From Haliclystus octoradiatus (Eukaryota; Cnidaria; Staurozoa; Stauromedusae; Haliclystidae): a stretch of DNA of 64,000 bases. The notes below the pieces were generated by a model. It ran no database searches. It saw only the letters and a program-made list of their open reading frames with translations, and was not told the DNA's origin. The position numbers and the translations under genes were made by a program. This document shows positions 37,641 to 64,000 of this stretch, piece after piece; positions within the stretch are counted from its first letter, which is position 1; every line of letters begins with the position of its first letter. The stretch lies in NCBI GenBank assembly GCA_916610825.1, contig OU744452.1:19118830-19182829 (forward strand), given 5' to 3'.

Positions 37641-37681
37641 TTGATTGATTGATCGATTGATTGATTGATTGATTGATTGAT
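37641..37681 (-). repeat. (TCAA)n tail of unit 1
   Basis: About 10 tetranucleotide repeats with one interruption. It marks the left edge of the array and may include a pre-existing genomic microsatellite used as the founding target. Confidence 0.85.
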
Positions 37682-38105
37682 GTGTCATATATTTGCATCT
37701 CATTTCGAGATAAAACTTTTTATGGGATATACATGGTTATTACAAATTGAAATTGAATTAATAATATTTTAAATAATTAAATGATAAGATAAGAGGGTGG
37801 TATATTTGTTTCATATAGTATAGTATATATATAAATATGTATATATATTTATTTATTTATTTATTTATTTATTTTTTTATTATTATTATTATTATTATTT
37901 TTTTTTTTTTGGTATTATCCCAATTGTTATGATTATTGTTCTCGCTATTGTCATTATCGTTACTATTGTCAAGTAGAACATAAAGATTTGATACTCAACT
38001 ACTATAGGCAATATGTTATTATTATTACTACTACTATTATTTTCTTTTTTTTTTCTTTTTCTCCTTTCTTTTTTTTTTTTTTTTTTTTTTTTTTTTTTTT
38101 CTCTT

Positions 38106-62151: not shown

Positions 62152-62575
62152 GTGTCATATATTTGCATCTCATTTCGAGATAAAACTTTTTATGGGATAT
62201 ACATGGTTATTACAAATTGAAATTGAATTAATAATATTTTAAATAATTAAATGATAAGATAAGAGGGTGGTATATTTGTTTCATATAGTATAGTATATAT
62301 ATAAATATGTATATATATTTATTTATTTATTTATTTATTTATTTTTTTATTATTATTATTATTATTATTTTTTTTTTTTTGGTATTATCCCAATTGTTAT
62401 GATTATTGTTCTCGCTATTGTCATTATCGTTACTATTGTCAAGTAGAACATAAAGATTTGATACTCAACTACTATAGGCAATATGTTATTATTATTACTA
62501 CTACTATTATTTTCTTTTTTTTTTCTTTTTCTCCTTTCTTTTTTTTTTTTTTTTTTTTTTTTTTTTTTTTCTCTT

Positions 62576-64000
62576 TTATAAAGCTTCTCTGTTTTTGATG
62601 TATTTTGTACATGAAAGAATTGCTGGACATTTCATGATGTGATAGAGATCACTTGCATTTCCATTGCACTCTTGACAGTAGCAGCTTTCTTTAGGCTTAT
62701 GGAAGATTTTATTAGTGCAAATTTCATGATGAAAGCCGTGAACGGACAATCTAGCAATGTAACTTCGGTTGCTTTGGTTGCATGCCTGCCAACTTAGAGT
62801 TTTTAGAATAGGTGCGTTTATGTAATCACCTGATAGCAGCGTATATACTTTTTGATTGCGTGCTTTGCTATATAATTCAATAGTATTTGTTTCGAAAGGG
62901 TATTGACTCTTGATGTCTTCAACAAACGAAGGTGTATTACAGAAAATAAACATCAATGTGTTTGATGAATTTGTGTGGACACCAAGAGTACGTTTCAAAT
63001 ATGCTGCTTTTATTCTATCAAGATAGACAAGCTGATTTAATTTTAAAAATGGAGCTATGACTTCGAAGGCGTAAGTAATAACAGGAGAAACTTTCATATA
63101 GAAAACCATTGAAGCTGTAGTCAATGACACTCTTGGGAGGCTTTGCAAGGCACCAATAGTTACCATAGACTTGTTAAATTTATTTGATATATGATGTGTG
63201 AATGTCAATGTTTGTTGTAAGCATACACCAAGGTAATCATATGACTTGACAAATTCCACGATTTCATTTCCATAAATAAGGATATCCGTTTTCTTGAGTG
63301 CACCTCCTTTTCTAAACTTTACTATTTTGCTTTTCTTGAGGTTTACAAACAGCTGGTTTTCATTACACCAATTAAATAAAACATTGAGTCCGCTCTGTAA
63401 GGCGTCTTTACTAGAGGAATACAATACTAAATCATCAGCATAAAATAAAAATTTGAGATCTGTACAAGAGGTTCTCAACTGCGTAGCAAGATCAGCAATA
63501 AATAAAATAAACAATGTTGGAGAAAGGCAATCTCCTTGGACAACTCCATGATTTTGCTCAATTGATTTTGAATAATTGAGACCATCGTCAATAGAAATAT
63601 GATTATCTTGTAATAATGCAGAAATTAAACGTAATATCAAACCATTCACACCAAAATCTTGTTTCAATTTTGTGATCAACTTAAAACGGTTGACATTGTC
63701 AAAAGCTTTCGTAAAGTCTATAAAGCAAGAGTACATGTGCCGCTTCCCTTTGGATTGGGAAAATTGGTTAAAAATATCATTTATTAAAATATTTAAAGGT
63801 TGTATAGTACCTTTGTTCTCTTGAAAGCCAAATTGTTCAGGTGGAACTAAGTGAAATATATTGTCTTTAAAACGACGATTAAGAAGTGTAGTAAGTACTT
63901 TGAGAGGACAGCATAAAAGAGATATACCACGATAATTATTTGGATCTATTTTTAGACCTTTACCTTTATACAGAAGCATAACTATGCTGCAACACCAGCG
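62576..64000 (-). CDS. LINE ORF2, partial (unit 7)
   Basis: About 475 codons of the C-terminal half are in view without a stop, from LLYKGKGLKIDPNNYRG through FYADDLVLYSS and the Cys-His motif to REAL and TAA. Over this stretch the residues appear the same as in unit 1. The N-terminal half is cut by the window edge. Confidence 0.9.
   Translation of the reverse strand, partial: RWCCSIVMLLYKGKGLKIDPNNYRGISLLCCPLKVLTTLLNRRFKDNIFHLVPPEQFGFQENKGTIQPLNILINDIFNQFSQSKGKRHMYSCFIDFTKAFDNVNRFKLITKLKQDFGVNGLILRLISALLQDNHISIDDGLNYSKSIEQNHGVVQGDCLSPTLFILFIADLATQLRTSCTDLKFLFYADDLVLYSSSKDALQSGLNVLFNWCNENQLFVNLKKSKIVKFRKGGALKKTDILIYGNEIVEFVKSYDYLGVCLQQTLTFTHHISNKFNKSMVTIGALQSLPRVSLTTASMVFYMKVSPVITYAFEVIAPFLKLNQLVYLDRIKAAYLKRTLGVHTNSSNTLMFIFCNTPSFVEDIKSQYPFETNTIELYSKARNQKVYTLLSGDYINAPILKTLSWQACNQSNRSYIARLSVHGFHHEICTNKIFHKPKESCYCQECNGNASDLYHIMKCPAILSCTKYIKNREAL

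Follow-up and report, generated by a model that had tools for sequence, protein, structure and literature searches.

A head-to-tail LINE array in a (TCAA)n microsatellite of Haliclystus octoradiatus, most probably a nest of separate insertions into the repeat

The window, by which we mean the whole 64,000-nucleotide stretch of Haliclystus octoradiatus DNA that was analysed, lies at C8:19118830–19182829 in a 262-Mb genome of 33 contigs. Seven units of one LINE family occupy positions 37682–64000 (C8:19.16–19.18 Mb, on a scaffold of 21.35 Mb), all of them on the minus strand and with only (TCAA)n in between, the repeat being read as (TTGA)n on the forward strand and as (TCAA)n on the strand of the LINEs. 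Repeat matches and unit-against-unit BLAST, in which the pieces were mostly 90–100% identical, bear out this layout as the first-pass annotation had described it. The 3′ edge of the array is formed by 42 bp of (TCAA)n with one variant unit (37640–37681, minus strand, 94% repeat match), beyond which lies other DNA, and this flank found no match among the first 20 loci compared. Unit 1 (37682–42333) is of the full-length form, with ORF2 at 38106–40862 and ORF1 at 40899–42149; unit 2 (42494–46809) has a broken ORF2; unit 3 (46855–51342) carries ORF2 at 47233–49989 and ORF1 at 50026–51282; and unit 4 (51395–56244) is again full-length in form, with broken ORFs. Unit 5 (56563–61229), also of the full-length form, holds ORF2 with endonuclease and reverse transcriptase (RT) at 56991–59747 and ORF1 at 59784–61040, unit 6 (61566–62069) is a 3′ fragment of 504 bp, and unit 7 (62152–64000) breaks off at an N gap where the window ends. 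The six spacers, at 42334–42493 (160 bp), 46810–46854 (45 bp), 51343–51394 (52 bp), 56245–56562 (318 bp), 61230–61565 (336 bp) and 62070–62151 (82 bp), are all perfect (TCAA)n (100% repeat match).

Six 5′ junctions are readable in the array and show four start points. Units 1, 4 and 5 have a common start, to within 2 bp, unit 2 starts approximately 20 bp further in, unit 3 at about base 126–130, and unit 6 at a point corresponding approximately to base 4117 in unit 5, leaving approximately 41 codons of ORF2. The first-pass annotation had these ends as full in units 1, 4 and 5, some 20 bp short in unit 2 and cut down to 40 ORF2 codons in unit 6, all of which stands; unit 3, however, is short by approximately 125 bp and not by the 145 bp stated there. 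The ‘full’ units themselves are without approximately 20 bp (GCGATCGGTCAGCGAGTT...) that are present upstream in two other copies. There is no N within the window, and 5000 N lie directly past it (L001 2002–7001), hence unit 7 is cut, its 5′ side is unreadable and the array may in reality extend further. Such runs of N may represent a gap or withheld sequence.

The ORF2 of unit 5 (918 aa in the listed frame) matched RVT_1 (7e-34), Exo_endo_phos_2 (5.3e-11) and Exo_endo_phos (5.2e-8), and the domain search found no RNase H match in it. With endonuclease and RT in ORF2, 5′ truncations and target-site duplications, the array element is an APE-type non-LTR retrotransposon (LINE). The ORF1 of unit 5 (418 aa) gave no Pfam match at E 0.001, and no CCHC pattern was found in ORF1, which has two cysteines in all; an R1 element with a type II ORF1 is still compatible with this. 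For the R1 clade, a type I ORF1 with RRM and CCHC zinc knuckle is described, and type II ORF1 is listed as well (PMC4120745). Homologues of ORF2 (102 proteins, the best 7996 candidates being scored) were 22–40% identical and nearly all unnamed. ORF1 and ORF2 share one frame, with a single TGA between them, in 16 of 16 copies that cover the join, including one that is approximately 3% diverged. In unit 5 the join lies at window positions 59747–59786, and the first Met of ORF2 in its listed frame comes only at residue 41. Judged from the reading frames, ORF2 may be expressed by stop readthrough or by reinitiation.

Two other minus-strand ORFs in the window appear to belong to mobile elements. 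Beside the array, at 31935–36443, an ORF of 1502 aa has RT, RNase H and integrase domains and is presumably part of an LTR-type element. The second, at 5902–8040 (712 aa), has 1895 homologues, and its matches point to a repetitive and probably mobile gene; one relative carries PF01541 (GIY-YIG), so that the ORF is perhaps Penelope-like.

Further copies of the array family were sought across the genome with the 5′ 230 bp (12 places), the 3′ 158 bp (40 of 75 candidates scored), a 3′-junction pattern (39 places) and the body of the element (40 of 198 candidates scored, 49 pieces). The resulting catalogue is incomplete and all copy counts are among the copies found. A 3′ end was counted only if its last 25 bases matched with at most four substitutions, and copies whose 3′ end was unreadable, such as those at C2:508612, C4:10365935, C10:16349240, C6:11701986 and C8:12195838, fall outside the count. 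Among the 47 3′ ends read in the fetched loci and the window, 30 ran into (TCAA)n, eight into (TCTA)n, one into (TGTA)n and eight into none of these, and AT followed directly in 46. Since (ATCA)n was part of the junction pattern, that search is biased towards TCAA and TCTA flanks, unlike the 158-bp search; the latter, flank-blind search alone, matched by hand, gave 25 TCAA, 8 TCTA, 0 TGTA and 7 other flanks (n = 40). By hand count, the 47 ends represent 27 separate places, 20 of which are in a tetranucleotide repeat. The 5′ junctions (n = 44) comprised 22 in (TCAA)n, six in (TCTA)n, one in (TGTA)n, 13 in none of these and two cut by gaps; among the 13 are a twin-priming join on C10 and two junctions close to (TCAA)n. 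Unrelated flanks at most copies, which the first-pass annotation had named as evidence against its own reading, were not what we found, as three tetranucleotide repeats account for 39 of the 47 3′ ends (and for 29 of the 42 readable 5′ junctions). In its behaviour, which is no statement on clade, the family acts as a microsatellite-specific non-LTR element. Head-to-tail (TCAA)n arrays of the family are also present on C10 (0.2 Mb), C6 (8.77 Mb), C1 (4.07 Mb) and C15.

Long (TCAA)n amounts to 69 runs (37, 7, 14 and 11 by register), approximately 5.4 kb of the 262 Mb. The 30 of 47 insertions that lie within it exceed the share expected from length by approximately 31,000-fold, a rough figure since array copies were taken as independent and array repeats were counted as target. 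Eight-unit matches are much more frequent genome-wide for (TCTA)n (40,469) than for (TCAA)n (869), yet fewer family copies are found in (TCTA)n, for which the total used in the enrichment test is a lower bound. Of the 69 long (TCAA)n runs, 31 adjoin family copies; they average 121 bp (median 78 bp) and hold 703 of the 869 (TCAA)8 matches. The other 38 are not at any known copy, and in the five of them that were read (C6:11707124, C8:18856473, C5:25753714 and two on C4) no family copy was present. The data are compatible either with long (TCAA)n runs being chosen or with runs growing after insertion.

Whether such a repeat belongs to the element or to its target can be read from its position, a repeat inside the target-site duplications being element-brought and one outside them pre-existing, a criterion taken from PMC2887409. 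Target-site duplications are unreadable inside a repeat, and in the eight copies outside tetranucleotide repeats the element's end, ...ACAC, passes into the flank with no microsatellite in between. Seven of the eight show exact target-site duplications of 9–16 bp that start with AT and begin at the 3′ end of the element, lengths reached in only 0–1 of 1000 shuffles. One of these seven sites lies within a further family copy, and at four the upstream duplicate is set apart from the element by 7–44 additional bp; at the eighth non-repeat site the match is only 4 bp, no better than in shuffles. A copy on C2 that sits in (TCTA)n has no substitution relative to units 1 and 5 over 938 sites, hence one source can give either flank. 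The microsatellite is the target and is not carried by the element.

The first-pass annotation had taken (TCAA)n for the family's own tail, with the tail of each copy serving as the target for the next. (TCAA)n does follow all seven window units and 30 of the 47 copies, and a good part of the long runs, with the bulk of the (TCAA)8 matches, adjoins the family as counted above. However, elsewhere 3′ ends pass straight into (TCTA)n (8 of 47) or (TGTA)n (1 of 47), repeats that there stand on both sides of the element, and seven of the eight copies without any such repeat have exact duplications and no tail. These tailless duplications, together with the substitution-free C2 copy in (TCTA)n, argue that ‘own tails’ is wrong, and we consider an element-borne tail extremely unlikely. 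The idea that the array can keep growing survives, since an insertion divides the target repeat without using it up, but growth by way of a tail that the element brings is weakened. The proposal that the units are separate insertions, and not products of tandem DNA duplication, is upheld by sequence comparison. Unit 5 differs from a C10 copy by 2 substitutions in 4017 sites and from a C6 copy by 4 in 3530, against 14 in 4233 for unit 1 and 52 in 4241 for unit 4. Among the long copies, those nearest to unit 3 are on C10 and C6 (8 differences each), and these two are also nearest to unit 1 (10 differences each). In a maximum-likelihood analysis of 16 copies, with 8 of 13 inner branches open and the bootstrap not settled, the array units intermixed with C10, C6 and C1 copies, and a single clade was rejected for window units 1–5 (p-AU 1.3e-49), for three C10 copies (p 1.0e-6) and for three C6 copies (1.5e-8).

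Tandem duplication or unequal crossing-over from one insertion would account for the single orientation and high identity of the units, for the grouping of units 2 and 4 in the tree (92/94) and for unit 7, whose readable 1849 bp match unit 1 without a difference and which, compared at 1429 sites, does not differ from unit 5 or from two C10 copies either. Exchange inside repeats does happen in this genome: at L012 4425–7414 (C8:12.648–12.651 Mb), two copies in (TCTA)n share one truncation point and are identical over 1178 bp, which is a tandem duplication, probably by exchange in the repeat. Given the identity of units 7 and 1, unit 7 may have been involved in a local duplication, and gene conversion between arrays could have blurred lineages, unit 1 being intermediate. 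As the origin of the whole array, however, duplication is very unlikely in view of four start points at the six readable junctions, nearest relatives of units 1, 3 and 5 on other chromosomes and the rejected clade. Joining of unrelated copies by an assembly error could be suspected from the 5000 N at which the array ends and from the N runs that likewise adjoin the C10 and C6 arrays, but the same head-to-tail layout recurs on five contigs, the 3′ edge passes into other DNA that is unmatched in the first 20 loci, and the window is without N, making this very unlikely. Template jumping is known for non-LTR RTs, and a single insertion with end-to-end jumps could have left a concatemer. Such jumps would join 3′ to 5′ end directly, whereas here 45–336 bp of (TCAA)n intervene; the sites with readable duplications have no (TCAA)n tail, and the long units differ from each other by up to approximately 1.4% (56 of 4118 sites), leaving a concatemer a negligible chance.

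We conclude that the array very probably arose by repeated, separate target-primed insertion of a single APE-type LINE family into one (TCAA)n microsatellite that was already there. Insertion sites outside tetranucleotide repeats nearly all begin with AT, and the endonuclease would nick the strand opposite AT(C). The freed 3′ end, ...(G)AT, would then pair with the 3′ end of the RNA, ...ACAC-AU, and prime cDNA synthesis. As (TCAA)n is asymmetric, insertions would be made in a single orientation, and since an insertion only splits the repeat, both halves would remain targets and head-to-tail arrays would accumulate. One copy inside (TCAA)n, at L003 3400–8117 (C10:195399–200116), is a twin-priming product in which bases 3–2459 are inverted and joined to bases 2442–4667. 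Related families would act likewise in (TCTA)n, and perhaps also in (ACT)n.

A whole-genome ORF2 search (50 of 4061 candidates scored, 52 matches) detected such families at 46–56% identity, with an ORF2 that is intact in many. In one of these families, at approximately 48–51% ORF2 identity over longer stretches, its own 3′ ends were followed by TCTA (n = 28), TGTA (n = 2), ATCC (n = 1), ATAC (n = 1) or none of these (n = 3) in the 35 copies read. As this 3′-end search tolerated a single mismatch, and (TCTA)n as well as (TCAA)n flanks spend it on the last letter, only exact 3′ ends of that family were found. The array family, with 30 TCAA and 8 TCTA flanks, differs from this relative, with 0 and 28 (Fisher p 1.4e-11), also when copies are collapsed by locus (p 7.4e-6, with 11 TCAA loci where the hand count is 12). 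Of 14 further stretches downstream of related copies, eight pass into (ATCT)n, one into (CATC)n and four into (ACT)n, and one (L097) has no such repeat within 1.2 kb. The four with (ACT)n, which is long there, are all the stretches read of a family at 46–47% ORF2 identity (L084–L087), where the repeat could be target or tail alike. By eye, the (ACT)n at L086 is followed by an apparent piece of a related RT.

Families also share arrays. At C11:10875771–10895798, a one-strand array mixes at least two families (three by ORF identity) with (TCTA)n between them, and the next ORF1 starts soon after each spacer that was read; at C2:32865545–32883147, four families stand head-to-tail in (TCTA)n, with one 500-N gap in a spacer. 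As related LINEs of the same genome are thus likewise found in simple repeats, such repeats seem to serve as landing sites. Tentatively, and with more doubt than confidence, we suggest that the LINE lineage has split the repeats among its families, (TCAA)n going to one, (TCTA)n to several and (ACT)n to another, and that insertion also lengthens the repeat, element and microsatellite thus promoting one another.

The window array lies 2.2 Mb from the nearer scaffold end. TTAGGG was detected at 6 of 12 contig ends sampled, namely both ends of C1, C10 and C11, and was absent from the sampled ends of C8, C2 and C6, the start of C8 being N. A TTAGGG end lies 0.2 Mb from the array on C10, the C1 and C6 arrays are megabases inside, and C15 is a contig of 0.55 Mb. 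The arrays illustrate how an element can maintain itself in large numbers in simple repeats outside telomeres and rDNA, and they point to places at which assemblies may be interrupted. The case provides a clean criterion by which target repeat and element tail can be distinguished, and related families that prefer (TCAA)n or (TCTA)n, repeats one base apart, offer a natural experiment on the part that sets the target, be it endonuclease, RT or the 3′ end of the RNA. Among titles and the starts of abstracts in the open-licence literature, we found no description of tetranucleotide-targeting LINE families in such arrays, which is weak evidence, the main papers on the subject lying outside that scope. 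Provisionally, what is new is that one lineage occupies several different microsatellites and that two of its families offer a contrast open to test.

Telomeric LINEs, with which the first-pass annotation had compared the array, follow a similar logic in a different place. SART/TRAS and HeT-A/TART resemble the array family in same-orientation nesting within an asymmetric short repeat that is still available as target, and TRAS inserts in (TTAGG)n (PMC2887409). In contrast, the window array has no chromosome-end location, its target is (TCAA)n and telomeres here are TTAGGG, although the array on C10 does come close to such an end. In Lepidoptera, RTE elements generate microsatellites, the repeat lying between target-site duplications and being element-brought (PMC2887409). 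These RTE elements are like the array family in that a LINE is tied to simple repeats, and unlike it in that the repeat here is outside the duplications.

Waldo, Mino, Kibi and Koshi are reportedly microsatellite-targeting non-LTR elements, as Kojima and Fujiwara are said to have described in 2003 and 2004. Dong targets (TAA)n (PMC2887409), Togen is found in (TG)n and some HERO families also target microsatellites (PMC4640811), and microsatellite-specific LINEs are known from several clades. All of these elements resemble the array family in inserting into a pre-existing repeat, which is the target and not a tail. Our system differs from them, provisionally, in that it involves an APE-type lineage whose ORF1 is without zinc knuckles, and in having several families with different preferred repeats, as well as mixed head-to-tail arrays.
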